64,000 nucleotides of DNA from contig UCAG01000014.1 of assembly GCA_900470285.1 (NCBI GenBank), forward strand, positions 124,001 to 188,000, written 5' to 3'. Each line of letters starts with the position of its first letter. Position 1 is the stretch's first letter. The notes under the pieces were generated by a model. That model had not been told where the DNA came from. It saw only the letters and a list, made by a program, of their open reading frames with translations, and did not search any database. The position numbers were made by a program, and so were the translations under genes. The stretch comes from Hyphomicrobiales bacterium. GTDB lineage: Bacteria > Pseudomonadota > Alphaproteobacteria > Rhizobiales > Rhizobiaceae. Below, one piece after another: positions 19,866 to 35,047 of the stretch.

Positions 19866-19869
19866 ATTA

Positions 19870-19917: not shown

Positions 19918-20205
19918 TTATTTGCGCAATTCGGCTTCAATTTCATCCAGAATCTTGTCTTTGCCGATACCGGTCAGAAAGGCGAGGCCTTTAATGACCG
20001 GTTTGGTCACAGATGCTGAAATCGGTGTGGTCGAGACGATGAAATCCACATTGTCAGCAAGAGAAGGCACTTCCGTAGCTTTGGCCTGCTGAGCATTGAA
20101 AGTGAGGCCGCGTTTTTTCATTTCCTCGGTTACAGTGGCATTCACCGCAGTTGAGGTGGCGATGCCGGTGCCGCAGGCAAAGAGAATGGTTTTCTGTTTA
20201 GCCAT
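19918..20205 (-). CDS. PTS galactitol-type EIIB component
   Basis: The 95-residue protein has the EIIB P-loop start KTILFACGTGIATSTAV with phosphorylatable Cys11. Length and motif match the GatB/SgcB group. It receives phosphate from the EIIA encoded upstream (20229-20690) and passes it to the sugar bound by the EIIC. It is the last gene of the leftward IIC-IIA-IIB operon. Confidence 0.92.
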   Translation of the reverse strand: MAKQKTILFACGTGIATSTAVNATVTEEMKKRGLTFNAQQAKATEVPSLADNVDFIVSTTPISASVTKPVIKGLAFLTGIGKDKILDEIEAELRK

Positions 20206-20228
20206 GAGGTCGCTCCTTATAATATTAT

Positions 20229-20690
20229 TTAACCGAGTAGTTTTTTAAGGTCGTCTGTTGTCTGTGCCAGTTTCAGCCCGTCGAGAATCTCCGGTGACTG
20301 AATTGCGCCCATAATGGATTGCAGTGTTTCAATCTGTTTGTCCTTGTCATTAATGGCAAGCAGGAACACAGTGCCGACGCCGACTGTTTCCTCCGGATCT
20401 TCCATATTCGCGAAATCAACCGGTGTTTTCAGCGTGGCCATGGCAATTGCTGCTTTCAGCACATGCTCAGGATCAGTGTGCGGCACAGCCACATTGTCCG
20501 CGCGCTCCAGCGGCAGGCCGGTCGGCATGGATTGCTCGCGTTTCACAACCGCATCGGCATAGCTGTCTTTAACATAGCCGAGCTGATGCAACCGGCTGGC
20601 CAGGAGACGGATAACCTCCTCATTGGTTTTTGCCTCAACGCCGAGCAGAATTGCGTCAGCTGTAAGGGAATTGAAGAGGCTGGTAGCCAT
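20229..20690 (-). CDS. PTS EIIA component (fructose/galactitol type)
   Basis: From ATG 20690 (MATSLFNSLTADAILLG) the protein has 153 residues. The ATG at 20723 would add 11 unrelated residues and overlap an intercistronic hairpin, while 20690 has GGAG at the right distance. It has the PTS EIIA type 2 fold with the active His71 in ADNVAVPHTDPEHV and the LPLERADN segment. It transfers phosphate from HPr to EIIB. Confidence 0.92.
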   Translation of the reverse strand: MATSLFNSLTADAILLGVEAKTNEEVIRLLASRLHQLGYVKDSYADAVVKREQSMPTGLPLERADNVAVPHTDPEHVLKAAIAMATLKTPVDFANMEDPEETVGVGTVFLLAINDKDKQIETLQSIMGAIQSPEILDGLKLAQTTDDLKKLLG

Positions 20691-20720
20691 CCTGTTTCTC
20701 CGTTTACTATGAATATTGTG

Positions 20721-20748
20721 CATTTACCCCGCGATAACGGGGTAAATG
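20721..20748 (-). promoter_or_regulatory. Intercistronic hairpin between EIIC and EIIA genes
   Basis: CATTTACCCCG and CGGGGTAAATG form a perfect 11-base-pair stem with a 6-base loop. There is no T-run, so it probably tunes mRNA stability or relative expression of the PTS subunits. Confidence 0.6.
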
Positions 20749-20761
20749 CTTGAGATGATTG

Positions 20762-22171
20762 TCAGGTTGCGGCCTGATCTGCAGACTCATCAGCGGCACC
20801 GGCTGCACGCTCCCAAGCCAGCGTATTGCGGCGGTAGAGTACAAACAGGGCAGCCACAACTACAGCCAGTACACCGATACCGGCAACGCCAAGCCACTGA
20901 ATTGCTTCAATGATAACATATGGAATCCACAGGAAGCCATCGACCACCGAAGTAATCTGCAAAGCATTATCCGGCAGCTTGAAGCCTGAAGAGACGGCGG
21001 CGCTGGTGAATAGCGGTGCCAGAGCATTAGCCACATAGAAGCCGATTGTCAGCGTGATTGTACCGACAATAACCATGCGGAACACATTGCCGTTCAAAAG
21101 CGGGGCTGTAAGCGCCACGATGAAAGGAATAACCGCAAGATCAGCAAACAGGATAACGCGGTTGCCCGGCAGGATAACCGAGAGCAGGATCGCAATCGGC
21201 ACAAGGATCAGCGACGAAGAAATCGCAGCCGGATGGCCGATCAGGATCGCTGAATCAAGGCCGACCAGCAATTCGCGGTCGCCGGTGCGCTTGCGCACAA
21301 ATTCCTGCGCGGCATCAGATACCGGTAACAGGCCTTCCATCAGAATTTTCACCATGCGCGGCAGCAGCAGCATCACAGCGGCCAGTGTCATACCTGTACC
21401 GAGAACCTTGGCCAGTACCGTGCCGAAATCACCGGCATTGTAGAAGGCGATGGTTCCCAGAACCAGACCGATAATCAGGCCGAGCACCACCGGTTCCCCG
21501 AAAACACCAAAGCGGCGTTCAATGGTTTCTGTGCTGATATTGACTTTGTTGATGCCCGGGATGCGGTCGAGCACCCAGTTTACGACAATGGCAATCGGCA
21601 GAATTTGCGCCGATGCAATATGCGGAACAGAAATGCCTGGCACATCATAGAATTGCTGAACGGCACGCGCTGACCAGTCGGCAAACAGCAGCGACAGCGC
21701 GGCAACCAGTGCGGCAATGGCAATACCATAGGCCAGATTGTCGGTCGCAGCGACAACGAGCGAGCCGATAAAGGCGAAGTGCCAGAAATTCCAGACATCA
21801 ACATTGAGTGTGCGAGTCCAGCGCATCAGCAGCAATGCAATATTGACCGCGATGCCGACCGGAATAACCCACAGGCCGACGGAAGAGCCGAAGGCAATGG
21901 CGGCGGCAGAAGGCCAGCCCACATCAACAATGTCACGCTTGATGCCGGTATTGGTAACGATTGCCTGCGCCACTTCACCGATTGAGGTGAACATCAGGCC
22001 AAGCACCAGATTAATACCGATAAAGGCAACGCCGATGGTGACGGCGGCACGAAATGCCTTGCCGACCTTTGCCCCCAGGATGACGGCGATAATAAAGATC
22101 ACGATTGGCAGCAGGACTGTTGGCCCCAGTGTATCAATCGCGGATTTCAAGCCATTCAGGAATTCATTCAT
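20762..22171 (-). CDS. PTS galactitol-type EIIC permease
   Basis: The 469-residue polytopic membrane protein has about 12 hydrophobic helices and GatC-family landmarks: KVGKAFRAAVTIGVAFIGIN, MRWTRTLNVDVWNFWHFAFI, and IGHPAAISSSLILVPIAILL. It forms the sugar channel of the galactitol-type EII. It is the first gene of the leftward operon, and an operator core shared with the glucitol-type PTS lies before it. Neither a GatY/GatZ aldolase nor a GatD dehydrogenase is nearby, so the substrate is not simply assigned as galactitol. Confidence 0.93.
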   Translation of the reverse strand: MNEFLNGLKSAIDTLGPTVLLPIVIFIIAVILGAKVGKAFRAAVTIGVAFIGINLVLGLMFTSIGEVAQAIVTNTGIKRDIVDVGWPSAAAIAFGSSVGLWVIPVGIAVNIALLLMRWTRTLNVDVWNFWHFAFIGSLVVAATDNLAYGIAIAALVAALSLLFADWSARAVQQFYDVPGISVPHIASAQILPIAIVVNWVLDRIPGINKVNISTETIERRFGVFGEPVVLGLIIGLVLGTIAFYNAGDFGTVLAKVLGTGMTLAAVMLLLPRMVKILMEGLLPVSDAAQEFVRKRTGDRELLVGLDSAILIGHPAAISSSLILVPIAILLSVILPGNRVILFADLAVIPFIVALTAPLLNGNVFRMVIVGTITLTIGFYVANALAPLFTSAAVSSGFKLPDNALQITSVVDGFLWIPYVIIEAIQWLGVAGIGVLAVVVAALFVLYRRNTLAWERAAGAADESADQAAT

Positions 22172-22218
22172 ATCTCCAAGCCTCCCGGGATATGTAAGAG
22201 CGTTATTATGTTGTGATG

Positions 22219-22228
22219 CAACATTTGT
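22219..22228 (-). promoter_or_regulatory. Candidate SorC-type operator before the galactitol-type PTS
   Basis: On the minus strand this reads ACAAATGTTG, inside an A-rich context, about 50 bases upstream of the EIIC start. It shares nine bases with the cores at 22483 and 28220. Confidence 0.5.
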
Positions 22229-22476
22229 TTTTTATTTAATACCAAAGTGTATCTGCGAAATTTATATCCAAGTCAATCGGGGGCAAATATGACCTGAAGA
22301 ATTTCGCTCTTAATAAGCCGTGTTTTTAGCAGAAAATATACAGAAATTTACGCAGCTCAGAATTTTTCCCTGATGCCACGCATTGGTTTTCGTGACGCTG
22401 CGGCGGCATAATTTTACGTTCCTGTACCGTGGCATGCGACTGTTTTACCGCAGATGAATTGAACAGAGGTATTGAC

Positions 22477-22495
22477 TTGAATACAAATGTTCAAT
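22477..22495 (+). promoter_or_regulatory. Candidate SorC-type operator before the oxidoreductase operon
   Basis: TTGAATACAAATGTTCAA is an imperfect palindrome (TTGAA and TTCAA arms) containing the core ACAAATGTTC. It lies about 70 bases before the oxidoreductase gene and overlaps a possible -35 element. Confidence 0.6.
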
Positions 22496-22562
22496 ACCCG
22501 ATTATAGAACTGATAAAATCAGACAGAGCGCCAAGCACCCAAAACGCTCTCAGGAGGAACTC

Positions 22563-23882
22563 ATGACCACCAATGTTGCGCTGACAGGGCTTGCCCGCGA
22601 TATGAAAGCCCGTGCTGATAGCGGCAGGCCAATTCGTATCGGCCTGATCGGATCAGGTGAAATGGGCACAGATATTGTGACCCGTGTTGCGCATATGCCC
22701 GGTATTGAGATTGGTGCTATTTCCGAATTGCGTGTGCCGAATGCGCTGAAAGCTGTTGATATTGCTTTTCAGGAAAGTGGTCATGGCCGCGAGGTTAATA
22801 CTGCATCCGACCTGACAGCCGCTATGGAAGCGCACAAAGTTGCTGTTACCGACAATGCCGATCTGATCCTTGAGAATGATCTGATTGATGTGGTGATCGA
22901 TGCGACGGGCGTGCCTGCTGTTGGTGCGGAAATCGGTCTGCGTGCCATGGAGCACGGCAAACATCTCGTCATGATGAATGTTGAAGCGGATGTAACTATC
23001 GGCGCTTATCTGAAGAGTGAGGCTGACCGCCTCGGTGTTACCTATTCACTTGGTGCCGGTGACGAGCCGTCTTCTTGTATGGAGCTGATTGAGTTTGTGT
23101 CTGCTATGGGACACCCGATTGTTGCTGCCGGTAAAGGCAAGAACAATCCGCTGAACATTGATGCGGTGCCGGACGCCTATATGGAAGAAGCAATCCACCG
23201 CAATATGAATGTGCGCATGCTGGTGGAATTTGTGGACGGTTCCAAAACCATGGTGGAAATGGCGGCAATCGCCAATGCCACCGGTCTGGTACCGGACAAA
23301 GCCGGTATGCATGGTCCGGCCGCAACGCTCGATCAGTTATCCTCAACCCTGATCCCTGAAAAAGATGGTGGTGTGCTCTCCCGTGTGGGCGTTGTCGATT
23401 ATACGATCGGCAAAGGCGTGGCACCGGGTGTGTTCGTCGTTGCCGACATGTCCCATCCGCGTATTTCCGAGCGTATGGAAGATCTGAAAATGGGTAAAGG
23501 CCCGTATTTCACCTTCCACCGTCCTTATCACCTGACCTCGCTGGAAGTGCCGCTGACCTGCGCCCGCGTCGTACTCTACGGCAAGCCGGATATGGTGCCG
23601 CTGGATAAGCCTGTGGCGGAAGTCGCAGCTGTGGCCAAGAAGGATATGGCGGTCGGTGAAACCCTCGATGCCATCGGTGAATATTGCTACCGCGCATGGA
23701 TCATGACGGCCGGTGAGGCACGTAGCGCCAAAGCCATTCCGTGTGGTTTGTTGCAGGGCGGTATCGTTACTGCGCCGATCAAAAAAGGTGAGTTGGTCAC
23801 CTATGCCAATGCCGCTGTGGCAGCAGGTTCCAAGATCGCAGAATTGCGCGCTCGTCAGGACAGACTGGTCTACGGCGCCTGA
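22563..23882 (+). CDS. Gfo/Idh or homoserine dehydrogenase-like oxidoreductase with C-terminal SAF domain
   Basis: The 439-residue protein has a Rossmann nucleotide-binding motif at residues 27-35 (GLIGSGEMG), a dehydrogenase-like middle (DVVIDATGVPAVGAEIGL, then GKHLVMMNVEADVTIG), and a SAF-like domain from about residue 340 (PLDKPVAEVAAVAKKDMAVG and a final ITAPIKKGE-like lid). Proteins of this architecture are often misnamed as flagellar FlgA because of the SAF domain. It probably oxidises a polyol- or sugar-acid-derived intermediate with NAD(P). AGGAGGAA before the ATG is an excellent ribosome binding site. It is the first gene of the operon with the acetoin-dehydrogenase-like subunits, so its product is probably their substrate. 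Confidence 0.82.
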   Translation: MTTNVALTGLARDMKARADSGRPIRIGLIGSGEMGTDIVTRVAHMPGIEIGAISELRVPNALKAVDIAFQESGHGREVNTASDLTAAMEAHKVAVTDNADLILENDLIDVVIDATGVPAVGAEIGLRAMEHGKHLVMMNVEADVTIGAYLKSEADRLGVTYSLGAGDEPSSCMELIEFVSAMGHPIVAAGKGKNNPLNIDAVPDAYMEEAIHRNMNVRMLVEFVDGSKTMVEMAAIANATGLVPDKAGMHGPAATLDQLSSTLIPEKDGGVLSRVGVVDYTIGKGVAPGVFVVADMSHPRISERMEDLKMGKGPYFTFHRPYHLTSLEVPLTCARVVLYGKPDMVPLDKPVAEVAAVAKKDMAVGETLDAIGEYCYRAWIMTAGEARSAKAIPCGLLQGGIVTAPIKKGELVTYANAAVAAGSKIAELRARQDRLVYGA

Positions 23883-23951
23883 TAGTTTTGAATTTGATAT
23901 ACGGTCTCATCAGGCCCCCGTTCTGATGAGTGCCTTGAGGAGTAAACTTTG

Positions 23952-24989
23952 ATGGCTCAGGTCAAAAAGGCTCAGACGGACGACAGCACGAAGGGTGATT
24001 TGCGCAATCTGCCCTTTGCTTTCCGTGAATATTCACCGGAAAAGCTCAAAGAAGCGCTGCATAAAATGTATCTGATCCGCCGCTTTGAAGAGGGCGCGGA
24101 AGAAAGCTATATGCGCGGACTTATTCACGGCACCATGCATCTGTCTATCGGACAGGAAGCCAGTGCTATGGGAATTTGTCTGCCGCTGGAAGAAAATGAC
24201 ATGATCGGCTCGACCCACCGTGGCCATGGTCATTGTATCGCCAAAGGTGCTGACATTGGCCGCATGTTTGCCGAGTTCTTCGGCAAGGAAACCGGTTATT
24301 GCAAAGGCCGCGGCGGTTCCATGCATATTGCTGATGTTTCAAAGGGTAATCTCGGTGCCAATGGTATTGTCGGCGGCGGTATTCCGATTGCTGTGGGTGC
24401 TGCGCTGTCGGCCAAGAAACAGAAAAACGGCAAGGTCGTTATTTCCTTCTTCGGTGACGGGGCCAACAATGAGGGCGCGTTTCACGAAGCACTGAATATG
24501 GCTTCGGTCTGGAAGCTGCCGGTGGTTTTTGTTTGTGAAAACAATGGCTATGGCATGTCAACCTCGACCAAACGCTCGACAGCGGTTGAAAATATTGCTG
24601 ACCGTGCGGTGGCCTATAATATGCCGGGTGTGATTGTTGACGGTAATAATCTCTCTGACGTTGCTGAAGCCGCTCATGAGGCGATTGAACGTGCGCGTCG
24701 CGGTGAGGGGCCGACCCTGATCGAGAATAAGACCTATCGTCTGCGCGGCCATTCCAAGAGCGACCGCAACCGTTATCGTACCAAGGAAGAGATCGAGGAT
24801 TGGGCAACCAATCGTGATCCGATCGCCCGTTTTGAGACTGATCTGAAAACTTACGGCTTCATCACCGATGCCGAAATTGAAACAATCCGCACCAATGTCG
24901 AAAAAGAGATCGCTGACGCTATCGAGTTCGCCAAGAACAGCCCGTCACCGGATCTCTCCAATCTGACACGCGATGTATACACGGACTGA
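23952..24989 (+). CDS. acoA: Thiamine-dependent dehydrogenase E1 alpha, acetoin dehydrogenase-like
   Basis: From ATG 23952 the 345-residue protein matches E1 alpha of acetoin/pyruvate dehydrogenase complexes. Features are the N-terminal [18 protein letters not shown], the substrate/TPP region [13 protein letters not shown], and the thiamine pyrophosphate/magnesium motif [20 protein letters not shown] ending in CENNGYGMS. It forms the alpha2beta2 E1 with the next gene, 7 bases away. Acetoin dehydrogenase E1 cleaves alpha-hydroxyketones. The symbol reflects closest family resemblance; the natural substrate need not be acetoin. Confidence 0.88.
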
Positions 24990-24996
24990 TAGAAAA

Positions 24997-25995
24997 ATGG
25001 ACACGACAATCCGTGAGTTGAGTTATTCGCAGGCTATTCAGGAAGCGATGGCAATCGCCATGGAGCGCGATGAGCGCGTTTTCCTGATGGGGGAAGATAT
25101 TGGTGTTTACGGCGGCGCTTTTCAGGTCACCGGCGATCTGGTGCATCGTTTCGGTGAAGACCGTGTGATGGATACGCCGATCTCCGAGCTTGGCGGTGCC
25201 GGTGTTGCGGTTGGTGCAGCGCTGACCGGTATGCGCCCGATTTTTGAATTCCAGTTTTCTGATTTTGCGGCGCTCGCAATGGAGCAGATCGTCAATCAGG
25301 CGGCAAAAATCCGTTACATGCTGGGTGGTGCGGTTTCCGTGCCTCTGGTGATGCGCTTCCCTGCCGGTTCCGGCACCGGTGCCGCAGCGCAGCACAGCCA
25401 GAGCATTGAGGCGTGGCTTGGCCATGTGCCGGGTCTGAAAGTTGTCCAGCCTTCCACCCCTTATGATATGAAGGGCATGTTGCTGGCAGCGGTTGAAGAT
25501 CCTGATCCGGTGATGATTTTCGAGCATAAGCTGCTTTATAAAATGAAGGGCGAAGTGCCGGAAGGCTATTACACCGTGCCGCTTAACAAGGCGAAAGTGG
25601 TGCGTGAAGGTACAGACCTCACCATCGTTGCCTCAGCGATTATGGTGCATAAAGCGCTGGATGCAGCGGCAGAGCTGGCCAAAGAAGGCATTAATGTTGA
25701 AGTGATTGATCTGCGCTCTGTGCGCCCGATTGACCGCGAAACCATTATTGCCAGTGTGAAGAAAACCTCGAAACTGATGTGTGTTTATGAGGCGGTCAAG
25801 ACATTGGGCATCGGCGCTGAAATCAGTGCGCTTGTCGCGGAAAGCGATGCATTTGATTATCTCGATGCCCCGATTATTCGTCTTGGCGGTGCGGAAACAC
25901 CAATCCCTTATAATCCTGATCTTGAACGGGCAACGGTGCCGCAGGTGCCTGATATTCTCAAAAGTGCCCGCGAACTTGTGAAGGGGGCGCGCTAG
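24997..25995 (+). CDS. acoB: Thiamine-dependent dehydrogenase E1 beta, acetoin dehydrogenase-like
   Basis: ATG 24997 ([20 protein letters not shown]) starts 7 bases after the alpha stop; an in-frame ATG at 24973 would overlap it and add eight unlikely residues. The 332-residue protein carries E1 beta landmarks: [40 protein letters not shown], and the C-terminal transketolase domain ([16 protein letters not shown]). Its stop and the E2 start are 2 bases apart, confirming one operon. Confidence 0.9.
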
Positions 25996-25997
25996 TC

Positions 25998-27329
25998 ATG
26001 GCGGTTGAAGTCATCCTGCCTAAAGTTGATATGGATATGGAGACCGGCCAGATTTCGCGCTGGTACGCCAAGGATGGCGATACGGTCACCAAAGGTCAGT
26101 TGCTGTTTGAGATTGAAACAGACAAAGCCGCTATGGAAGTGGATGCACCGGCATCCGGTATTCTAGGCGATGTGTCTGCTGCGGAAGGCGCAGTCGTGCC
26201 GGTCGGTCAGGCCGTTGCATGGATCTATGCTGAAGGCGAAGAGCGGAAGGTTGTCAGCCAACCGGTTGCAGAACCCATTGATGAACCGTACGTGCAGCCT
26301 TCAGTCTCTGAAACCCCCGCTGTGCAACCGGTTATTACCTCCGTACCGGTTGCACAGACTGAAATTACAGGCATTCGTGCGACACCACTGGCACGCAGAC
26401 TGGCAAAAGATGCAGGTCTTGATCTGAATGCGGTACAGGGCTCCGGTCCTAAAGGTCGTATTCAGAAGAAAGACATAGAGTTCAGCTTGGCGGCTGCGGC
26501 ACCTGCTGTTTCGCCGGTGCAGGCCACCGTATCCCGTCCGGTTGTCACATCACCGGCGCAAGGCGCGCTTAATGCCGTCTGGCTGCGTCAGGGGGAAAGC
26601 GGGCAGCTGCCGATTGTGCTGATCCATGGCTTCGCGTCAGATCTTAACAGCTGGCGCATGCTTCTGGCCGGCGGTACTTTGCGCAATCCGGTTCTGGCGC
26701 TTGATCTGCCAGCCCATGGCGGCTCACCGCGTTACGTGCCGGAGAGTATTGATGCGATTGCGGCCAGTGTGGAAACAACGCTGGCAGCTCATGGGGTTGA
26801 AGCCTGTATTCTGGTTGGCCATTCCATGGGCGGTGCTGTGGCAGCTGTCACAGCCGATCGCGGCATTGCGGATGTGCGCTCGCTGGTTCTGATTTCTTCT
26901 GCCGGTCTCGGCCCGCAGATCAATGGTGCATTCCTCAACGGTTTGGTGCAGGCCAAAAGTGAGGCAAGCATTGTGCCCTGGCTGAAAGAACTGTTTGCCG
27001 ATGAAAACATGCTCTCCAGAGCTTTCATCAATGCAACGGTTGTGCAGGCTCAGGATACGGAACTGCGCGCAGCACAAGCCGGTATGGCGGCGCATTTATG
27101 TGCAGACAGTACCCAGACGTTTGAAATCCGCTCAAGCCTTGAGGGGCTGGCAATTCCTGTACGGCTGATCTTCGGTGCGCAGGATCGCATTATTCCCGTG
27201 GCTCATGCCCATGGCCTGCCGGGAGACGTGGGTGTGCATGTGTTCCGCAATTGCGGACATATGCCTCAGCTGGAGCAACGTGATGCTGTGCTGCGTATCA
27301 TCGGAGAGTGCAGCAGGGCAGCACAATAA
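25998..27329 (+). CDS. acoC: E2-like component: lipoyl domain, E3-binding domain and alpha/beta hydrolase (AcoC-like)
   Basis: The 443-residue protein begins with a lipoyl domain (lipoylated Lys43 in EIETDKAAMEVD) and a Pro/Val-rich linker. A peripheral E3-binding domain follows at 126-162 (IRATPLARRLAKDAGLDLNA, GPKGRIQKKDI). The C-terminal part is an alpha/beta hydrolase: oxyanion HGFASDLNSWR, nucleophile Ser276 in GHSMGGA, acid in FGAQDRI and the histidine of NCGHMPQLE. It lacks the trimeric acyltransferase core (HxxxDG) of ordinary E2 proteins. Acetoin-type E2 proteins share this hydrolase architecture. No E3 gene is present locally, so dihydrolipoamide dehydrogenase must be supplied from elsewhere. 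Confidence 0.88.
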   Translation: MAVEVILPKVDMDMETGQISRWYAKDGDTVTKGQLLFEIETDKAAMEVDAPASGILGDVSAAEGAVVPVGQAVAWIYAEGEERKVVSQPVAEPIDEPYVQPSVSETPAVQPVITSVPVAQTEITGIRATPLARRLAKDAGLDLNAVQGSGPKGRIQKKDIEFSLAAAAPAVSPVQATVSRPVVTSPAQGALNAVWLRQGESGQLPIVLIHGFASDLNSWRMLLAGGTLRNPVLALDLPAHGGSPRYVPESIDAIAASVETTLAAHGVEACILVGHSMGGAVAAVTADRGIADVRSLVLISSAGLGPQINGAFLNGLVQAKSEASIVPWLKELFADENMLSRAFINATVVQAQDTELRAAQAGMAAHLCADSTQTFEIRSSLEGLAIPVRLIFGAQDRIIPVAHAHGLPGDVGVHVFRNCGHMPQLEQRDAVLRIIGECSRAAQ

Positions 27330-27386: not shown

Positions 27387-27438
27387 CCCCCGCAGGATGC
27401 AAGGTTTTCCTTCCATCCTGCGGGGATTTTTTTATTTT
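27387..27438 (+). terminator. Terminator of the oxidoreductase-acoABC operon
   Basis: CCCCGCAGGATG pairs with CATCCTGCGGGG around a loop of about 13 bases and is followed by ATTTTTTTATTTT. The T-run abuts the end of the convergent gene. Confidence 0.88.
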
Positions 27439-28087
27439 AAGTCTGTGATGGCTGCGTAAGTGCAACGGCAGGATGGTCCGCGCCGAGTGCGCGCTGCACT
27501 GCCGCGCGTGCCGAGGCAAAATCCGGCATCACCCAATTGGGCTCCTGTCCCAAAAACTTGTCGAGGAAGGCGATGGCAAAACCCGGCATTTCAGACGCAT
27601 TCTCACGATATGTCCACCAGGTGCGCAGATCATTGGCGCTCTGGTCAATATCAGGACTTGTTCCGAACTCCTGTTCCTGTATCGCGGCAATCGCGCAGAT
27701 ACAGTAATTGGTATAAAGAAAACCTTCCGGCCAGAAGCGGATGATTTCGTTTAAATTCTCCATCTCGCCTGTCAGAACTTTATCCGGCGCGCTCACTGCT
27801 TTGGCGGGGTTGAGGCGGATCAGTTCTTTAAGAACCAGACCGGCGGCAAAAATAATGAAATCCTTACGGTCTACAGCAGCATAATGTTTGTTCTGATTGA
27901 CCAGCTCGATCCAGTTGAGAAAGGCTTCCGTCAGGCGTTTTTCATCAATATCATAGCGCATACCGGTCATTTCGGTAATCAGACCGGCATGTTTTCGCAA
28001 AGTTGCCCGAAACCAGCGCAGCTGACGCAACCTGTGCCGTAAATCAGGCACATTTGCCATCTGGTTTTTGAATAGCAGATCCATCAT
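27437..28087 (-). CDS. Unrecognised soluble protein in the PTS locus
   Basis: The 216-residue protein has no signal peptide or membrane helix and is predicted mostly helical. It has an Arg-rich N-terminal region (LRHRLRQLRWFRATLRKHAG) and a hydrophobic central stretch (FIIFAAGLVLKELIRLNP). I cannot assign a family. It lies alone on the minus strand between the acoABC operon and the glucitol-type PTS operon. Its position inside a cassette of otherwise co-regulated genes suggests a linked role, but nothing in the sequence says which. MMDLLF and MANVPDL are alternative starts. Confidence 0.7.
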   Translation of the reverse strand: MMDLLFKNQMANVPDLRHRLRQLRWFRATLRKHAGLITEMTGMRYDIDEKRLTEAFLNWIELVNQNKHYAAVDRKDFIIFAAGLVLKELIRLNPAKAVSAPDKVLTGEMENLNEIIRFWPEGFLYTNYCICAIAAIQEQEFGTSPDIDQSANDLRTWWTYRENASEMPGFAIAFLDKFLGQEPNWVMPDFASARAAVQRALGADHPAVALTQPSQT

Positions 28088-28219
28088 GAGCTCTTTCTTG
28101 TGTCGGTCTTTTATGCGGGCACTTCATTGACAGTAATCATAAGCGATGACAGGAGAAATGTCATGGTCCATTCGCTTTGACCTGCGTGTAATGAATTATA
28201 CATATTGACATTGAAAAAA

Positions 28220-28229
28220 ACAAATGTTC
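28220..28229 (+). promoter_or_regulatory. Candidate SorC-type operator before gutM
   Basis: ACAAATGTTC is identical to the core at 22483-22492 and lies about 60 bases before gutM, within an A-rich tract. It links the glucitol-type PTS operon to the other two units of the locus. Confidence 0.5.
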
Positions 28230-28289
28230 TCTAATTCACTCGGGAGAATGAGCTGATGACGGGTTCAGAGGCAGTCGGGAGGATATCGT

Positions 28290-28724
28290 ATGGCGATATG
28301 GCAATGGGCATTATTAGCTTTGGCATTGCTCTGGGGGTTCCAGTCGCTGGGTGTCTGGTTCCAGATGCGTCATTATACCGATGTCATGAAGGGCATCAGC
28401 AATAAATACAAAGACGGATATGTTGGTGCCGGTCATGTGCGCGGGCGTTTCGGTAAGGGCGTTATTGTTCTGATCGTGGTGGATCATGATCTGGTTGTGC
28501 GCAGATTACTGGAGATGAGCGGTCGCACAGTCTTTGCCAAATTCACCCGTCGTGATGCTTTTGAAGGGCTGACACTGGCCCAATTGCGGGAGCAGCTGGA
28601 GCAGGAAAAATTTCAGCCGGCTGTGGCACATGCGGTGCGTTCTGCAATCGAACAGGCTGAAAGGCTGGCTGATACGTCTGGCGGAGAGACCGGACTAACC
28701 GGTCTGAAGACTGTGGAAGCCTGA
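28290..28724 (+). CDS. gutM: GutM-like glucitol operon activator protein
   Basis: The 144-residue protein has one N-terminal membrane-spanning segment (WQWALLALALLWGFQSLGVW) followed by a soluble domain with GAGHVRGRFGKGVIVLIVVD, the GutM family pattern. In Escherichia coli, GutM activates the glucitol operon; here it directly precedes the EII genes, as in many gut operons. GGGAGGATATC before the ATG is a good ribosome binding site. Its regulatory role is taken from the family, not seen. Confidence 0.85.
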   Translation: MAIWQWALLALALLWGFQSLGVWFQMRHYTDVMKGISNKYKDGYVGAGHVRGRFGKGVIVLIVVDHDLVVRRLLEMSGRTVFAKFTRRDAFEGLTLAQLREQLEQEKFQPAVAHAVRSAIEQAERLADTSGGETGLTGLKTVEA

Positions 28725-28777
28725 ACTAAAAAGAGTAGGGGAGGCCGCATTTCCGATGCGGCAATCAGGGAGGTAAT

Positions 28778-29578
28778 ATGTCAATTACAGCAATGTTGGC
28801 ACAACATGCCGACGTCACCATGCAATCCCTGCACCATGCGGGGGGGCTGGTATCCGACGCAGTGTTAAACGCGGGGCTGCACAGCAAAATGGCAGTGCAG
28901 CAAAACGGCAATGATCTCGTGGTTCTGGCGCAGGCCAGCACTGATACGGGAACAGCGGCTGCAACCGGCGGCAATATCACTGTCGATCAGTTCCGTGAAC
29001 GCCTGCAAAATGTGCAGCAGGAAGAACAGCTGGGCTGGCTGACCGCTTTGGGTAAACACTTTATCGGTGTGTTCCAGAAGGGCGGCGAGGTTCTGACCGG
29101 CTTTGTTACCGGCATCATCCCGACACTGATCGTGCTGATGACCGCTTTCTACGCGATCACCGAACTGGTGGGCGAAAAGCGTGTGCATGGTCTGGCGCGC
29201 GGTGCCGGACGTATCGCGCTGACCCGCTATACGGTTTTGCCTTTGCTTTCGGTCTTCTTCCTGACCAATCCGATGGCTTATACTTTCGGTTCGTTTCTCG
29301 AAGAAAAGCACAAGCCTGCATTTTACGATGCTGCGGTTTCCTATGTGCATCCGCCGCTTGGTCTGTTCCCGCATATCAATCCGGGCGAGTATTTCGTCTG
29401 GGGCGGCATTCTTGTGGCGCTGCTGGAACTGGAAAAGAAGGGCGCAGTGCCGGGCGGTTATCATATCACTGTGGCCATCTGGTATGCGCTGGTCGGCCTC
29501 GTGGTGATCCTGCTCAAAGGTATGCTGACAGAACGTATTACCGCCATTATGGCGCGCCGTCAGGGCATTGAGCTCTGA
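28778..29578 (+). CDS. srlA: PTS glucitol/sorbitol-type EIIC subunit (SrlA-like) with N-terminal extension
   Basis: Residues from about 88 onward match the glucitol EIIC subunit: GKHFIGVFQKGGEVLTGFVT, LPLLSVFFLTNPMAYTFGSF and GLFPHINPGEYFVWGGI. The E. coli protein is about 187 residues and begins at this point; here an extra 85 or so residues precede it (MSITAMLAQHADVTMQSLHH and onwards). GGGAGGTAAT immediately before ATG 28778 supports the long start. The extension is helical and not obviously a signal peptide; its role is unknown. Several membrane helices follow. The subunit works with the EIIBC and EIIA encoded next. Confidence 0.9.
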   Translation: MSITAMLAQHADVTMQSLHHAGGLVSDAVLNAGLHSKMAVQQNGNDLVVLAQASTDTGTAAATGGNITVDQFRERLQNVQQEEQLGWLTALGKHFIGVFQKGGEVLTGFVTGIIPTLIVLMTAFYAITELVGEKRVHGLARGAGRIALTRYTVLPLLSVFFLTNPMAYTFGSFLEEKHKPAFYDAAVSYVHPPLGLFPHINPGEYFVWGGILVALLELEKKGAVPGGYHITVAIWYALVGLVVILLKGMLTERITAIMARRQGIEL

Positions 29579-29594
29579 GGGGCGGGAGGGGAAC

Positions 29595-30587
29595 ATGGCA
29601 AAAACCTACAAATCCGTAACGATTAATCCGGGTTCCGGCGGCTGGGGCGGCCCGCTGACCATTCAGCCGACCGAACAGCGCAATAAAGTTGTTTCTGTCA
29701 CCGGCGGCGGTATTCACCCGATTGCCCGTCAGATTGCAGATCTGACGGGCGCAGAAGCGGTTGACGGCTTTAAAAGCCCGCCGATTGAAAGCGAAATGGC
29801 TGTTGTAATCGTGGATTGCGGCGGCACAGCACGCTGTGGTGTGTATCCGCGCAAACGTATTCCGACCGTTAATGTGATGCCTGTTGGCCAGTCCGGTCCG
29901 CTTGCGCAATATATTACCGAAGATATTTATGTGTCGGGTGTGAAGTCTGAAAATATCGCCCTTGCAGATGGTTCCGCACCGGCTGCTGCCGCTGCGGCAC
30001 AGACCAAGGCTGAGGCGCCTGCCGCTGCACCGGTTGAACAGCCTTCTGAAGGCGGTCTGATCGGCTTTATCAGCAGTGTCGGCCGTGTAATGGGCGGTAT
30101 TGTCGGCGTGTTCTTTAATGCCGGTCGCCGTACCATCGATCAGGTTATCCGTAATGTTCTGCCATTCATGGCCTTCGTTACAATGCTGATCGGCTTCATC
30201 CTCTATACCGGTATCGGCGATATTCTTGCACAGCCGCTGGGACCGCTTGCCAATAATATTATCGGCCTGCTGATCCTGTCCGCAATCTGCGGTCTGCCGT
30301 TTCTGTCACCGGTACTCGGGCCCGGTGCGGTGATTGCGCAGGTGGTTGGTGTGGCAATTATCGGGCCGCAAATTGCTAATGGTACAATTGCTCCGGCAAT
30401 GGCTCTGCCTGCACTGTTTGCCTATAACACACAGGTCGGTTGTGACTTTGTGCCGGTCGGTCTGGCATTGGGTGAAGCCAAGCCGAAAACCATCGAGATC
30501 GGTGTGCCTGCGGTTCTCATCAGCCGTCAGATCATGGGGCCGGTTTCGGTGCTGATTGCATGGGCTGTGAGCCTGATGGTTCTTTAA
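29595..30587 (+). CDS. srlE: PTS glucitol/sorbitol-type EIIBC subunit (SrlE-like)
   Basis: ATG 29595 has GGGAGGGGAAC upstream and is preferred over ATG 29568, which overlaps srlA. The 330-residue protein starts with the EIIB domain: GSGGWGGPLTIQP, VVIVDCGGTARCGVYPRKR with the phosphocysteine, and GPLAQYITEDIYVSGVKSEN. An Ala/Pro-rich linker (about residues 120-150) follows, then the membrane EIIC part (GLPFLSPVLGPGAVIAQVVG, VGCDFVPVGLALGEAKPKTI). The order and content match E. coli SrlE. Confidence 0.93.
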   Translation: MAKTYKSVTINPGSGGWGGPLTIQPTEQRNKVVSVTGGGIHPIARQIADLTGAEAVDGFKSPPIESEMAVVIVDCGGTARCGVYPRKRIPTVNVMPVGQSGPLAQYITEDIYVSGVKSENIALADGSAPAAAAAAQTKAEAPAAAPVEQPSEGGLIGFISSVGRVMGGIVGVFFNAGRRTIDQVIRNVLPFMAFVTMLIGFILYTGIGDILAQPLGPLANNIIGLLILSAICGLPFLSPVLGPGAVIAQVVGVAIIGPQIANGTIAPAMALPALFAYNTQVGCDFVPVGLALGEAKPKTIEIGVPAVLISRQIMGPVSVLIAWAVSLMVL

Positions 30588-30599
30588 AATACACAATAC

Positions 30600-30636
30600 A
30601 AAGAGCGGTCTGGTCGCCAGGGACTGACCGCTCTTT
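30600..30636 (+). promoter_or_regulatory. Intercistronic hairpin between srlE and srlB
   Basis: AAAGAGCGGTC and GACCGCTCTTT pair perfectly over 11 bases with a loop of about 15. Only a short T-run follows, so it may act as an attenuator or partial terminator rather than a full stop, since the EIIA gene follows. Confidence 0.6.
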
Positions 30637-30676
30637 CAATACTAATTTGAATGACAGATTGAAAGGTTCCGCCATT

Positions 30677-31057
30677 ATGACAATTTCTCTTAAAACGCGG
30701 ATTACCGCTGTGGGTCCTGAAGTGGCGGATCTGGCTGAAGGCGGCGTAGTTATCCTGTTTGCTGACGGCTCTCCGTCAGAACTGGCTGAGGTTTCTGTGC
30801 TTCATGCGGTGGAAGACCAACCGTCTGCAGAAGCCCCTGCTACCGGCGCAAAGATCAGCATCGGTTCTCTTGAGGCGACTATTACTTCTGTCGGCTCCAG
30901 CGCGTGGCAGAAAGTGCTGGATATCGGCCATGTGGTGATTTCGTTCAACGGTTCTGAAAGCACCGAGCGTCCGGGAGAAATTTGCGCTTCCGAAGTGGAT
31001 ACGCAGGCGCTGGTGGCACAATTGCAGGCCGGCGCCGCTATTATCATTCACGCATAA
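30677..31057 (+). CDS. srlB: PTS glucitol/sorbitol-type EIIA (SrlB-like)
   Basis: The 126-residue cytoplasmic protein (MTISLKTRITAVGPEVADLA) has the glucitol EIIA layout. His43 in SVLHAVED lies where the phosphoryl-accepting histidine of E. coli SrlB does. The later GHVVISFNGSES and RPGEIC segments also match. ATG 30677 has GAAAGG upstream; an in-frame extension to 30560 would run back through the hairpin and into srlE. It hands phosphate to SrlE. Confidence 0.88.
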   Translation: MTISLKTRITAVGPEVADLAEGGVVILFADGSPSELAEVSVLHAVEDQPSAEAPATGAKISIGSLEATITSVGSSAWQKVLDIGHVVISFNGSESTERPGEICASEVDTQALVAQLQAGAAIIIHA

Positions 31058-31084
31058 TATTTAGACGACTGAAACAGGTATAGC

Positions 31085-33055
31085 ATGGAACGCTCGACAA
31101 TCGTACGGGTGCATGAAGGTTTACATGCACGGCCGGCTACCCGCTTTGTGAAGCTTGCCAAGAGCTTTGAATCGGACATTGAGATTGCTAAAGCGGACAA
31201 AAGTGTCAGCGCAAAAAGCTCTGTGAAGCTGATGCTGCTCGGGGTCAAGGAAAATGACACGGTGACCGTACGAGCCGAAGGTGCAGATGCGATTGAGGCA
31301 CTGGAAACGCTGATCGGCTATCTGGAAAATCCGCTGTCGGGTCTGGATGAAAATGTGGATGCTCTTGGTGCTGCGAGCGTGCCAGCACCTGTTGAAATAG
31401 CCGTTCCGGCTGTTGCGCAGGTAGAGCCGGAAGATGCCGGTTTTATCACTGGTATTGCGGCCAGTGAAGGTGTGGCAATCGGGGAGGCCTATCCGTTTTT
31501 TCCGCCGGAAATCGCTGCCGATAACCGCACGTTGAAAACCTCTGAAATACCCGCAGAACTTACCCGCTTTCATGACGCTGTCGCGCATGTTCAGCAGCGC
31601 ATGGATGCGGAGTTGAAAGCGGATAATCTTGCCGAGAGCGACCGCGGTATTATTGCGGCATTGAAGGATATTGCTGCGGACGAGACCTTGCTTGATGAAG
31701 CAACAGGCCTGATCCGTGGCGGGCTGGATGCGCTCTCCGCCATGCTCGGTGCCAGTGCAGCCGTTGCCCGTCAGTTCTCAGAGATTGATGATCCTTATCT
31801 CAATGCCCGTGCCGATGATGTGCAGGCCGTTGGCCGTCAGATTTGTCTGGCACTTCTGGGACAGCAGGATATAAGTCTTGAAGCCTTGCCGGATGGTGCC
31901 ATTCTGATCGCTGAAGATATCGGCGCATGGGATTTCGCCCGCGCACCGCTGAAAAAGATCGGTGCGATTGTTTGCGGTCATGGCGGCGCAACCTCCCATG
32001 TGGCGATCATTGCCCGCACCCATGGTATTCCGGCGGTGCTCGGTCTGGGTAAAGCGGTGCATCAGCTGAAAGATGTGAAGCAGATTGCTGTTGACGGCAG
32101 TAAAGGCCGTGTTGCGCCGGATCCGGATGAAACAATATTTGCGGATTTCAAGCAGCGTATTGCAGACGCGAAGCTTGAAAAACAGGCTTTGGAAGCCTAC
32201 CGCACCATGATCCCGCAGCGGGCAGATGGTACGGTGATTGAGGTGGCCGCTAATCTCGGTGCACTGGAAGAGATTGAGGTGGCACAGGCTGCCGGTGCGA
32301 TGGGTGTCGGCTTGTTCCGTACCGAGCTGTTATTCATGAAGCATATGCATCTGCCATCGGAAGATATGCAGACAGAAACCTATTCGGCTTTGCTGAAAGC
32401 TTTTGCACCTTATCCGGTGATTGTGCGCACGCTTGATATTGGCGGGGACAAGCCGATTGCCGGTATTGAATTTCCGCAGGAGGAAAACCCGTTTCTCGGC
32501 TGGCGCGGTATCCGTATGTGTCTTGACCGATTGGATATTTTCAAGCCGCAATTGCGTGCCTTGCTGCGTTCTGCCGTCAATGGGCAGCTTAAAGTCATGC
32601 TGCCGATGATCTCGGATGTGGCGGAAATCCGCGCAACCAAAGCTTTAATTGAAACCTGCCGGCAGGAACTGCTCAGCGAGGGCAAGGCTTGCGGTCAGTT
32701 TGATCTTGGCGTGATGATTGAAACGCCTGCCGCTGTTTTCGCCGCACAACAGCTGGCACAGGAAGCCGCTTTCTTCTCAATCGGCACCAATGATCTGACC
32801 CAATATGTTATGGCTGCAGACCGGCTTAATCCGACAGTTGCCAAGCTGAATGATGTTTCACATCCGGCGGTAATGGCTGCCATTGAGATGACAGCAAAAG
32901 CAGGCATTGAGGCCGGTATTATGGTGGGAATGTGCGGTGAGGCGGCAGCAAGGCCGGATCTGATTGCAGAATTTATCCGCATGGGGCTGACAGAACTGAG
33001 CATGAGTCCCGCTTCAATCCCGCGGGCAAAGAAGCTGATTTCTGAGCTTAAATAA
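31085..33055 (+). CDS. Fused HPr-Enzyme I phosphotransferase
   Basis: The 656-residue protein has an N-terminal HPr domain (residues 1-82, His14 in HEGLHARPATRF, Ser region SAKSSVKLMLLG), a Pro/Val/Ala linker and a complete Enzyme I. The EI part has active His305 in GHGGATSHVAIIAR, the PEP-binding segments GLFRTELLFMKH and IRTLDIGGDKP, and the C-terminal GTNDLTQYVMAADR and MCGEAAARPDL. It draws phosphate from PEP and can energise both local PTS systems on its own. Unlike PtsP it lacks a GAF domain, and unlike FruB-type fusions it lacks an EIIA. It is the last gene of the glucitol-type operon. Confidence 0.93.
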   Translation: MERSTIVRVHEGLHARPATRFVKLAKSFESDIEIAKADKSVSAKSSVKLMLLGVKENDTVTVRAEGADAIEALETLIGYLENPLSGLDENVDALGAASVPAPVEIAVPAVAQVEPEDAGFITGIAASEGVAIGEAYPFFPPEIAADNRTLKTSEIPAELTRFHDAVAHVQQRMDAELKADNLAESDRGIIAALKDIAADETLLDEATGLIRGGLDALSAMLGASAAVARQFSEIDDPYLNARADDVQAVGRQICLALLGQQDISLEALPDGAILIAEDIGAWDFARAPLKKIGAIVCGHGGATSHVAIIARTHGIPAVLGLGKAVHQLKDVKQIAVDGSKGRVAPDPDETIFADFKQRIADAKLEKQALEAYRTMIPQRADGTVIEVAANLGALEEIEVAQAAGAMGVGLFRTELLFMKHMHLPSEDMQTETYSALLKAFAPYPVIVRTLDIGGDKPIAGIEFPQEENPFLGWRGIRMCLDRLDIFKPQLRALLRSAVNGQLKVMLPMISDVAEIRATKALIETCRQELLSEGKACGQFDLGVMIETPAAVFAAQQLAQEAAFFSIGTNDLTQYVMAADRLNPTVAKLNDVSHPAVMAAIEMTAKAGIEAGIMVGMCGEAAARPDLIAEFIRMGLTELSMSPASIPRAKKLISELK

Positions 33056-33062
33056 ATTTAAA

Positions 33063-33103
33063 CACCGCCGTAAAATACATTCTTATGGCGGTGTCTTGTC
33101 TTT
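33063..33103 (+). terminator. Terminator after the HPr-EI gene
   Basis: CACCGCC (33063-33069) and GGCGGTG (33087-33093) pair around a 17-base A/T-rich loop, which can extend the stem by partial pairing. TCTTGTCTTT follows. It lies between convergent genes. Confidence 0.65.
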
Positions 33104-33854
33104 ACGGCAGATGAAAAATCAGTGTGGCAAATAGTTTTTGCAGAGCCGCTTCATCCTTGTTCTGCAAGCTTTCAAGAATACGCTCGCCGCGTGCTTCCAC
33201 TGCCAGCAGGGCGCTTTCCAGATTATCAATATTTTCCATATCCACCGGTTTGGCCGTTGCCAGACCGCAGGCCAGACTAATGGCAGCAAAGCCCGAAATC
33301 AGGGCTTGTTCGGACAGGCTGCTGGACTGGCGCACCGGTTGTTGGCGCAATATTTCCTGAAACAGCGCCGTGCACAGTCTGGCAGTCTGCTGGATCACAT
33401 CTGTTTTCGGGTCATGCAGGCGGGCAATATCCGCACTATAGCGCTGTTTCATATGGTTATAGACCGACATGAAAACCGCTTCCTGAATCAATACATTTTC
33501 AGCTTTATTACGGCGTAATACGGCTTTGGTCAGATAATACATATCGCGATGAAACGCGCGCTGCCCTTCTTGTCCGCTTGTGAAATAGAAGCTTAAGCCC
33601 TGCACATCCGGCGCATTTTCATGAATGGACGGATTGTCGGAAACCAGTGAAATAGAGATATTTTCGGCCGTACTGAATGCTTTATCCATCACGGTTGCCG
33701 CAACATGTGCAGCACGGGTGAGGACAATATCCGGCAGGATTGCCGGTTCTGCAACCTCATTCTGACCGTGACGGGTACGGCGCAGGGCATAACGCAGGCC
33801 TCGCAGCTTGTCTTTGATACTGACGGCGATGTCGTTCGGAATGTCCTGATGCAT
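33102..33854 (-). CDS. Unrecognised helical protein divergent from the SorC regulator
   Basis: The 250-residue cytoplasmic protein is predicted to be largely helical, with a basic N-terminus (KDKLRGLRYALRRTRHGQ) and segments such as LTRAAHVAATVMDKAFSTAE and GFAAISLACGLATAKPVDME. There is no signal peptide, membrane segment or catalytic motif that I recognise. Its start is 65 bases from that of the SorC regulator on the opposite strand, so the two may share control. AGGATG precedes the ATG. Like the protein at 27437-28087 it is an unexplained member of the PTS cassette. Confidence 0.72.
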   Translation of the reverse strand: MHQDIPNDIAVSIKDKLRGLRYALRRTRHGQNEVAEPAILPDIVLTRAAHVAATVMDKAFSTAENISISLVSDNPSIHENAPDVQGLSFYFTSGQEGQRAFHRDMYYLTKAVLRRNKAENVLIQEAVFMSVYNHMKQRYSADIARLHDPKTDVIQQTARLCTALFQEILRQQPVRQSSSLSEQALISGFAAISLACGLATAKPVDMENIDNLESALLAVEARGERILESLQNKDEAALQKLFATLIFHLP

Positions 33855-33919
33855 GGTCGTTCATCCTGCGCGCATGATGCGGGTATAACCCGAAATGATG
33901 ACGGGATTATTGTTTCTTC

Positions 33920-35047
33920 ATGGCGGAAAAAGCAATAAGCTGCGTGCAGAAAAACATGCGTATCGGCCGGTCTTTCAGCGGGCAGTATAAGTATATGCAA
34001 AATATTCGGGGAATTGGGTTGAAAAGCACGAAACGCAAATCGGGTAATGTTCAGGAAACACCGGAATTTATCGTCGGATCAGAGAGCGTCGCCAGCGAAA
34101 ATAAGACCAACCGGCTGCGCACCCGCGCGGCGTGGATGTATTATGTTGAGCAGATGACCCAGAACGACATTGCGGATGTGCTTGGTGTCGGTCGTGTAAC
34201 AATTGTGCGGTTGCTGGCTGAAGCCCGTGCCCGCAATGAGGTGAAAATCACGATTGAAGGCAAGCTGGCCGGTTTGACTGCTCTGGAAAGAATGCTGGAG
34301 CAGACCTTCGGGCTGGAGCGGGCAATCGTTGCGCCATTGTCAACACCGGAGACCGACCCGATTGTGCCGATTGCCGCTGCAACCGGTGCCTATCTTTCCG
34401 AGAAAGTACAGCATGGCATGCGTATTGGTGTGGGCTGGGGGCGCACATTATCCGGCACTTTGCAGCATATCGGTGCGCGCAGTCTTAATGATCTTAAAGT
34501 GATTTCGCTTCTCGGCGGAATTGCACAGCCGCGCCGGTTCAATCCGCCGGAATTTGCCTGGCAATTTGCGCAGATTTTTCAGGGCGAGGGCTATCTGATC
34601 CCCGCACCGGCACTGGTTGACAGTCAGGAAACCCGCGAGGCATTGGTTGAGCGCTGCGGTTTGAAAGACGTTTTCGAAATGGCTGATGATCTGGACATGG
34701 TTCTGCTCAGCATCGGCGGCATTGAGACGGCCAGCAGCACATCTTATCGTGTTGGTCTGATTGATGACGCGCAGAAGCGCTCTTTGATTGAGAATGGTGC
34801 AGTCGGCGATATGCTGTTCCATTTCTATGACCGCAACGGTGAGATCGTTTCCGATCCGGTGCATGAGCGCGTGATGTCGGTCAGTATGGATAAGTTGCAA
34901 AAAGCTCCGGTGCGTATCCTCACTTCCGGCGGACCGGAAAAAGTTGTGGCATTGCTCGGTGCAATGAAACTGCTGAAGCCAACGGTTTTCATCACCGATG
35001 AAATCAGTGCCGCTGAAATGCTGAAGAAATATCAGGTTGAGAGTTAA
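33920..35047 (+). CDS. SorC/DeoR-type sugar-binding transcriptional regulator
   Basis: The protein has up to 375 residues. The helix-turn-helix is at about 79-103 (YYVEQMTQNDIADVLGVGRV) and the C-terminal sugar-binding domain contains GVGWGRTLSGTLQHIGARSL, ISLLGGIAQ and a final ITDEISAAEMLKKY. SorC-type regulators sense phosphorylated sugars and control PTS and polyol operons, so this is the probable regulator of 19.9-33 kb. The start is uncertain: the first 30-50 residues are not conserved-looking, and ATGs at 33956 or 33995, or the TTG at 34020, are plausible. Confidence 0.88.
   Translation: MAEKAISCVQKNMRIGRSFSGQYKYMQNIRGIGLKSTKRKSGNVQETPEFIVGSESVASENKTNRLRTRAAWMYYVEQMTQNDIADVLGVGRVTIVRLLAEARARNEVKITIEGKLAGLTALERMLEQTFGLERAIVAPLSTPETDPIVPIAAATGAYLSEKVQHGMRIGVGWGRTLSGTLQHIGARSLNDLKVISLLGGIAQPRRFNPPEFAWQFAQIFQGEGYLIPAPALVDSQETREALVERCGLKDVFEMADDLDMVLLSIGGIETASSTSYRVGLIDDAQKRSLIENGAVGDMLFHFYDRNGEIVSDPVHERVMSVSMDKLQKAPVRILTSGGPEKVVALLGAMKLLKPTVFITDEISAAEMLKKYQVES

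Follow-up and report, generated by a model that had tools for sequence, protein, structure and literature searches.

The 64,000-nucleotide stretch of DNA analyzed here (the window) carries, at positions 19918–35047, a locus that is probably a catabolic pathway for 2-C-methyl-D-erythritol (ME). ME is a small sugar alcohol, the dephosphorylated form of 2-C-methyl-D-erythritol 4-phosphate (MEP) from the terpene pathway of plants and bacteria. The locus joins two phosphotransferase system (PTS) permeases to an oxidoreductase, which we recognize by sequence as DRL (DXR-II), the NADP-dependent enzyme interconverting 1-deoxy-D-xylulose 5-phosphate (DXP) and MEP, and to the E1 and E2 components of a thiamine pyrophosphate (TPP)-dependent enzyme complex. 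Together these genes are part of a DRL-centred, catabolic-looking module that is kept across phyla.

In the proposed route the glucitol-type PTS, supplied by its own HPr-EI fusion protein, would import ME and phosphorylate it to MEP, which requires phosphorylation at the C4 hydroxyl. DRL would act in the oxidative direction (MEP + NADP+ -> DXP + NADPH). E1 would then split DXP between C2 and C3 and load the acetyl unit onto the lipoyl group of E2, yielding acetyl-CoA and D-glyceraldehyde 3-phosphate; this final step would mirror the DXP synthase reaction, with the acetyl group retained on lipoate. Such chemistry has a precedent among enzymes of the E1 kind, as purified pyruvate dehydrogenase produces 1-deoxyxylulose and E. 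coli aceE mutants form DXP in vivo (PMC3424233). E3 would come from the pool of the cell or, in other versions of the locus, from an lpd gene. The SorC-type regulator would respond to a phosphate of the pathway, and the galactitol-type PTS may take up the same polyol or 1-deoxy-D-xylulose, the latter entering directly as DXP. The substrate can be named as ME because DRL links DXP to MEP and because DXP, like acetoin, ends in CH3-CO-CHOH-; read in this way, the locus would close into a single route: ME -> MEP -> DXP -> acetyl-CoA + glyceraldehyde 3-phosphate. Among the literature results listed, no title or start of an abstract deals with a catabolic route for ME, MEP or DXP, an absence which is no proof as subscription papers lay mostly outside the search. 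PTS, catabolism, acetoin and transport are not mentioned in the main text of PMC3847144, nor is catabolism in the available parts of PMC13001223 and PMC10663253.

Identity of the oxidoreductase

The product of the gene at 22563–23882 (+ strand) matches the DRL of Brucella abortus (PDB 3UPL) over residues 1–435 with 717.7 bits (phmmer). The DRL catalytic domain (PF21135, DRL_cat) scores 223 bits against a cut-off of 27 and covers model positions 1–164. An earlier note on this DNA had called the protein a SAF-domain oxidoreductase; no match of the SAF model was reported for it at E <= 0.001 in Pfam, no DRL model was shown among its NCBIfam results, and judged by its sequence the protein is DRL (DXR-II). 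The note had further supposed that the oxidoreductase makes a phosphorylated alpha-hydroxyketone which the TPP-dependent E1 cleaves. This logic is supported, but the identity of DRL, and hence DXP and ME, had been missed. In databases such genes are labelled “NAD(P)H-dependent oxidoreductase”, “homoserine dehydrogenase” or “SAF domain-containing protein”.

DRL stands in for DXP reductoisomerase in some bacteria, and Lys191, Lys193, Thr229 and Arg320 of the Brucella enzyme anchor fosmidomycin or lie at the dimer interface (PMC3847144, available part). All four residues are retained in the window DRL. Among 52 E1-linked DRLs they were found in 52, 52, 51 and 52 sequences, respectively, and among 105 other DRLs in 105, 102, 100 and 103.

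The window genome contains a second DRL, a solitary gene on another contig that is 89% identical to the first and has neither PTS nor E1 genes beside it. Both copies pair on the DRL tree (SH-aLRT 98), so one probably arose from the other, and the solitary copy can serve isoprenoid synthesis. Divergent from it we noticed by eye a HAD-like open reading frame (L032:11174-11866; L numbers stand for loci and G numbers for genomes). The Brucella DRL falls into the same 26-row set as the window DRL (support 91), 20 rows of which are E1-linked. A broken DRL-like stretch in three pieces was seen in Pantoea (L045), with neither PTS nor E1 beside it.

A rival reading is that the polyol is one of the relatives of ME, i.e. 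2-methylthreitol or another branched tetritol or pentitol, deoxy forms included, handled by the same chemistry with the specificities of DRL and E1 shifted. The glucitol and galactitol PTS families and the SorC regulators are loose guides to a substrate, the presence of two PTSs hints at more than one, and 2-methyltetrols from isoprene oxidation are abundant in the environment. However, the residues that anchor the substrate in the Brucella DRL are retained in the window DRL, and its near-twin is one of only two DXP reductoisomerase candidates found in the cell. We therefore consider a relative of ME as the substrate rather unlikely and keep ME in the following.

Recurrence of the DRL neighborhood

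An alignment of DRLs, headed by that of Listeria innocua, was used to scan 84,980 species genomes. The best 80 of 547 confirmed hits were taken, and 79 of these loci entered the counts (L113, in which no DRL was called, was left out). Within 9 kb of DRL a glucitol PTS was present in 59 loci, a pair of E1 alpha and E1 beta genes in 25, both in 20, and a SorC homologue in 59; 15 loci lacked all of the PTS, E1 and kinase genes searched for near DRL. Counting only loci flanked by 8 kb or more on each side, the numbers were 48 of 56 for the PTS, 16 of 56 for the E1 pair and 16 of 56 for both. Hosts with both belong to Enterococcus, Vagococcus, Bacillaceae, Planococcus, Brevibacillus, Thermovorax and Rubrobacteraceae, and a DRL-adjacent E1 was also found in Halanaerobium, Hakubella and an Aerophobetes bin. 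The common conservation of PTS and E1/E2 genes that the earlier note had expected is borne out: in several phyla both are repeatedly found next to the oxidoreductase, though in 39 of the 79 loci the glucitol PTS is not accompanied by an E1 pair within 9 kb.

In the order of the window genome DRL was detected at E <= 1e-120 in 55 of 297 genomes, with at most five candidates scored per genome. Outside the window genome 60 of 69 places were taken for analysis, and of the remaining nine, G189 was examined separately as L033. Twenty of these 60 neighborhoods have an E1 pair no more than 9 kb from DRL: eight with a glucitol PTS, seven with an ATP-binding cassette (ABC) transporter and a sugar kinase, and five with neither in reach. 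Neither E1 pair, glucitol PTS nor ABC/kinase genes were found in 37. L215, which has E1 alpha only, is not E1-paired in these totals and is E1-linked in the genome table described below. Twenty genomes, chosen because they carry the locus, contain 64 E1 alpha homologues in about 91.4 Mb (summed from rounded sizes). As these homologues are sparse, only about 0.013 E1 alpha genes are expected per neighborhood, and the linkage of DRL and E1 is more than chance.

The core of DRL, E1 alpha, E1 beta and E2 was found in Alphaproteobacteria, Bacillota and Actinomycetota. It is located next to a glucitol PTS in, e.g., L048, L074, L098, L104–L107 and L111, and next to an ABC transporter with a ribokinase-like kinase in L043, L044, L163 and L166. 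The latter two take the place of the PTS in S. meliloti pRM41A and Rhizobium sp. N324, where they are followed by SorC, DRL, E1 alpha, E1 beta, E2 and lpd. With either design, PTS or ABC/kinase, DRL would receive a polyol that is already phosphorylated, and this swapped uptake around a conserved core is the strongest structural argument for the ME pathway. Since a PTS yields pyruvate and a kinase does not, E1 is unlikely to serve only the pyruvate formed by the PTS.

E1 alpha (23949–24989, +; PF00676), E1 beta (24973–25995, +; PF02779, PF02780) and E2 (25998–27329, +) follow DRL directly. For E2, with its lipoyl, E3-binding and alpha/beta-hydrolase domains, the earlier description of the set as acetoin-dehydrogenase-like holds: it passes the acetoin dehydrogenase E2 model of the AcoC type (NF011457) with 426 bits at a cut-off of 307. 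The description does not extend to E1 alpha, whose nearest model is that of pyruvate dehydrogenase (PDH) E1 alpha, with 389 bits just under the cut-off of 394. Outside Alphaproteobacteria three E2s were scanned (L048, L098, L111), and each carries an acyltransferase domain of the usual kind; the E2s of several alphaproteobacterial relatives likewise match the acyltransferase type. E1 alpha is listed with a TTG start; matches in relatives begin at about residue 5–31, and the true start possibly lies further in.

E1 alpha and E1 beta were concatenated, and a quick tree was built from the aligned stretches (69 rows; the four short rows L141, L142, L146 and L147 were left out, and linkage was counted at 12 kb). 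All 55 DRL-linked pairs group together, apart from the sampled acetoin-type and PDH rows and with one of the 14 unlinked rows (L237) inside; the SH-aLRT of this group is 90, a modest support drawn from 14 comparison rows only. By the thresholds used, 20 alignment columns distinguish the DRL-linked E1s from the others. In one of these positions, 62 of E1 alpha, Thr is present in 55 of 55 linked rows and in L237, and Phe in 11 of 13 comparison rows. The column aligns with a Phe of human PDH E1 alpha which we take to be an active-site residue; a smaller residue here would suit a larger substrate.

L237, a Clostridioides difficile plasmid, has at 9061-20001 SorC, E1, E2, lpd and a galactitol-type PTS, with no DRL within the stretch read; ispD and ispF lie a few genes off. 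Its E1 carries the linked residue in 18 of the 20 columns. This locus and the near-twin DRLs of the window genome hint at a wider reading, which we regard as possible though clearly short of probable: both PTSs would be entries into a single pathway scavenging early MEP-pathway intermediates that have leaked out or lost their phosphate. The glucitol PTS would convert ME into MEP, for which DRL is required, and the galactitol PTS 1-deoxy-D-xylulose into DXP, which would pass directly to E1, and DXR-II would be catabolic in origin and repeatedly recruited, as in Brucella and the window genome, to replace DXR in isoprenoid synthesis. As the DRL tree is quick and unrooted (sequences labelled DLO1/DLO2 are not among its rows), a catabolic origin of DXR-II is a reading and not a result. 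Counting against the wider reading, the galactitol-type PTS adjoins DRL without a nearby E1 in L178 and L179. In these loci GatBAC (GatB 92% identical) is divergent to a DRL that is not E1-linked, and the hosts carry an E1 locus elsewhere (L158, L160). GatBAC adjoins DRL also in L235 (Rhizobium sp. B230/85), which has the entire double-PTS set of the window with a differing type of E2. Glucitol- and galactitol-type PTSs occur together with DRL in L059, L069, L071, L074, L083, L111, L116, L119 and L215, though not all of these have E1.

Further genes recur around DRL. In Bacillota a class II aldolase, a triosephosphate-isomerase homologue and a UPF0047 protein (L063:6149-8214; also L061, L062, L065, L066, L070, L089, L092 and L096) adjoin DRL and the glucitol PTS or lie within a few kb of them. 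This set may represent a second, non-oxidative breakdown of DXP, in which a carbonyl shift would be followed by cleavage to dihydroxyacetone phosphate and acetaldehyde. Genes for a zinc alcohol dehydrogenase and a D-2-hydroxyacid dehydrogenase adjoin DRL in L060:7510-9588 and in L050, L055, L068, L073 and L083, inside the glucitol PTS operon wherever the contig is long enough. A HAD-family sugar phosphatase is a common neighbor (L235:5081-5761; homologues in L156, L159–L162, L164, L208 and L234). On a plasmid of Phyllobacterium zundukense (L040:8022-15320) genes for a LacI regulator and an ABC-type sugar transporter precede a DRL that is 90% identical to that of the window; no E1/E2 was found in the 29-kb stretch read. 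Downstream of the double-PTS DRL locus of Rhizobium sp. B230/85 lie thiC, thiS and the genes for thiazole synthase, thiamine phosphate synthase and thiD (L235:18813-24040). Thiazole synthase uses DXP, and E1 requires TPP.

Isoprenoid genes of the host genomes and competing explanations

Isoprenoid genes were searched in 43 hand-chosen genomes behind the 80 loci (without L085), with named control genomes run in every search. From these we counted by hand 20 non-alphaproteobacterial genomes with DRL and E1. L059 and L073, with an E1 pair slightly past 9 kb (“gut only” in the classes of the DRL tree, E1-linked at 12 kb in the E1 tree), are counted in; the count leaves out L118, where E1 is farther away and on the opposite strand, and E1-bearing loci of genomes outside the 43, such as L075, L076, L094, L100, L109, L114 and L117. 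Five genomes (L048, L054, L059, L073, L092) have HMG-CoA synthase and no IspG match, ten have both DXR-I and IspG, three (L098, L099, L120) have IspG without DXR-I, and two metagenome-assembled genomes have none of DXR-I, IspG and HMG-CoA synthase. L059 gives a weak, partial DXR-I match (E 1.6e-4). The locus DRL is thus unneeded for isopentenyl diphosphate in 15 of the 20 genomes, perhaps needed in three and unclear in two, and this gene content speaks against isoprenoid synthesis as the sole role of the locus.

For the order of the window genome the table of DXR-I covers 47 of the 55 genomes; of the eight outside it, G449 has DXR-I and seven do not. DXR-I is present in 4 of 7 genomes whose only DRL is E1-linked vs 4 of 40 with a non-linked DRL (Fisher p = 0.011, uncorrected for kinship). 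In G354, G445, G462 and G500 the sole DXR-II is located in an ABC/kinase/E1 locus and DXR-I is kept. The window genome itself has DXS and IspG; DXR-I and HMG-CoA synthase were not found in it, and either of its two DRLs may be the one needed for isopentenyl diphosphate. With DXS present, E1 is ruled out as a DXS substitute there.

Several points weigh against a catabolic ME pathway. DRL has been characterized as a biosynthetic enzyme, and the DXR reaction, while reversible, has its equilibrium towards MEP. The many loci with a PTS and no E1 pair, among them many from Bacillota, mean that another downstream route must exist there, and the grouping of the linked E1s rests on the modest support given above. 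DRL may serve both jobs in L098, L099 and L120, which lack DXR-I, and two of the five mevalonate genomes, L048 and L054, match the DXS model well (L092 does not). G592, G414 and G511 have only an E1-linked DXR-II and no DXR-I, so the E1-linked DRL must also make MEP in these genomes; G511 has the ABC version and is 91% complete, and like G500 it also carries a lower-scoring PF21135 protein. Finally, G576 holds both kinds of DRL plus DXR-I.

An alternative is that the locus serves supply, with imported ME salvaged into the MEP pathway or with E1 and DRL making DXP and MEP for isoprenoids or thiamine. Where DXR-I is absent from a genome, DXR-II is considered the sole enzyme that forms MEP (PMC3847144, available part); G592, G511 and G414 have neither a solitary DXR-II nor DXR-I. 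A mutant PDH E1 can form DXP (PMC3424233, available part), and the thiamine cluster after the locus of Rhizobium sp. B230/85 would fit such a role as well. Against it stand the five locus genomes with HMG-CoA synthase in which no IspG was found, the DXS of the window genome, and E2 with the frequent lpd, which imply an oxidative acyl-CoA product. Supply is therefore an improbable purpose of the locus. Still less probable, indeed very much so, is that E1 and E2 are a second PDH or an acetoin dehydrogenase next to DRL by regulon only: the near-threshold PDH score of E1 alpha and the acetoin model passed by E2 would agree with it, but DRL-E1 adjacency repeats across phyla with differing transporters, the linked E1s group together and share distinctive residues, and burning PTS pyruvate is ill-suited to the ABC/kinase loci. 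Use of sorbitol or galactitol is ruled out, as no matching dehydrogenase or aldolase was found among the Pfam domains of the locus.

If the locus does degrade ME, this would explain the occurrence of DXR-II where isoprenoid synthesis has no need of it. As far as available, PMC3847144 asks why DXR-II occurs alongside DXR-I, with mevalonate only or with neither pathway, and a 2026 review (PMC13001223) describes its distribution as without a defining pattern except for overrepresentation in certain pathogens. A DXR-II gene alone would then be no evidence for isoprenoid synthesis, and genes now named “SAF-domain” or “homoserine dehydrogenase” would gain a function. The pathway would also offer a whole-cell means of delivering MEP or DXP into bacteria.

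Organization of the locus and comparison with known systems

The locus comprises 15 genes, 13 with a Pfam match and two with neither a Pfam nor an NCBIfam match. Its content (two PTS permeases, GutM, HPr-EI, SorC, E1/E2 and the oxidoreductase) agrees with the earlier note, as does the lack of the usual PTS enzymes: no SrlD-, GatD-, GatY- or GatZ-type enzyme is among the 13 Pfam-matched genes. The genes form four units: divergent gatCAB, DRL-E1 alpha-E1 beta-E2 with intergenic gaps of 66, -17 and 2 bases, GutM-EIIC-EIIB-EIIA-HPr/EI with genes that overlap or sit short gaps apart, and the regulator gene.

The galactitol-type PTS is encoded on the - strand by EIIB (GatB, 19918–20205; PF02302, 40 bits), EIIA (GatA, 20229–20723; PF00359, 114 bits) and EIIC (GatC, 20762–22171; PF03611, 288 bits; TIGR00827 with 437 bits below its cut-off of 542). 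On the + strand lie GutM (28290–28724; PF06923), the glucitol-type EIIC (28778–29578; PF03608), EIIBC (29568–30587; PF03612, PF07663) and EIIA (30560–31057; PF03829), followed by the HPr-EI fusion as phosphoryl donor (31085–33055; PF00381, PF05524, PF00391, PF02896) and the SorC-type regulator with its sugar-binding domain (33920–35047; PF04198). The glucitol PTS set is complete, with EIIA, EIIB, EIIC and GutM all in the locus, and its EIIBC is the sole PF03612 match in the 3.81-Mb window genome.

Both genes without a family match are on the strand opposite to the main units (-) and encode conserved proteins of 216 aa (27437–28087) and 250 aa (33102–33854). The former has homologues in both the PTS and the ABC/kinase versions of the locus, the latter in the loci of some relatives; the two are kept in alphaproteobacterial locus versions, PTS and ABC alike. 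AlphaFold without an alignment was uninformative for the 216-aa protein (mean pLDDT 46.6).

A candidate operator of the regulator is located in the divergent gap between gatC and DRL (22468–22498). It is an inverted repeat, GGTATTGA-15-TCAATACC, with TTGAATACAAATGTTCAA inside. A similar element, AATACA-ATGTTCAA, was found upstream of DRL in L156 and L159–L162 and is less plain at the other loci inspected. The candidate is weak because the bare TTGAA-8-TTCAA pattern is not more frequent in the window than expected by chance, and a role of the repeat as operator is only suggestive.

The nearest known relative of the central enzyme is the Brucella abortus DRL (3UPL, 3UPY), homologous over residues 1–435 with the anchoring residues retained. 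Unlike that enzyme, the window DRL is part of a probably catabolic locus with E1/E2 and a PTS (in relatives PTS or ABC), and the direction proposed for it is from MEP to DXP. With AcoABC the locus shares E1 alpha, E1 beta and an E2 that has an alpha/beta-hydrolase domain and passes the acetoin-type model. In contrast to AcoABC, its E1 pair groups apart, with modest support, and neither AcoX nor AcoR was found among the genes at 19918–35047 by Pfam scan. The EII components and GutM resemble those of the Srl/Gut and Gat PTS operons; SrlD, GatD, GatY and GatZ are missing here, and the polyol phosphate would enter DRL instead. In the Ery pathway of erythritol catabolism in Brucella and rhizobia a tetritol is phosphorylated, oxidised and fed to the triose pool. 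That pathway uses other dehydrogenases and isomerases, whereas the route of the window would take a branched C5 polyol through oxidative cleavage into C2 and C3 units.

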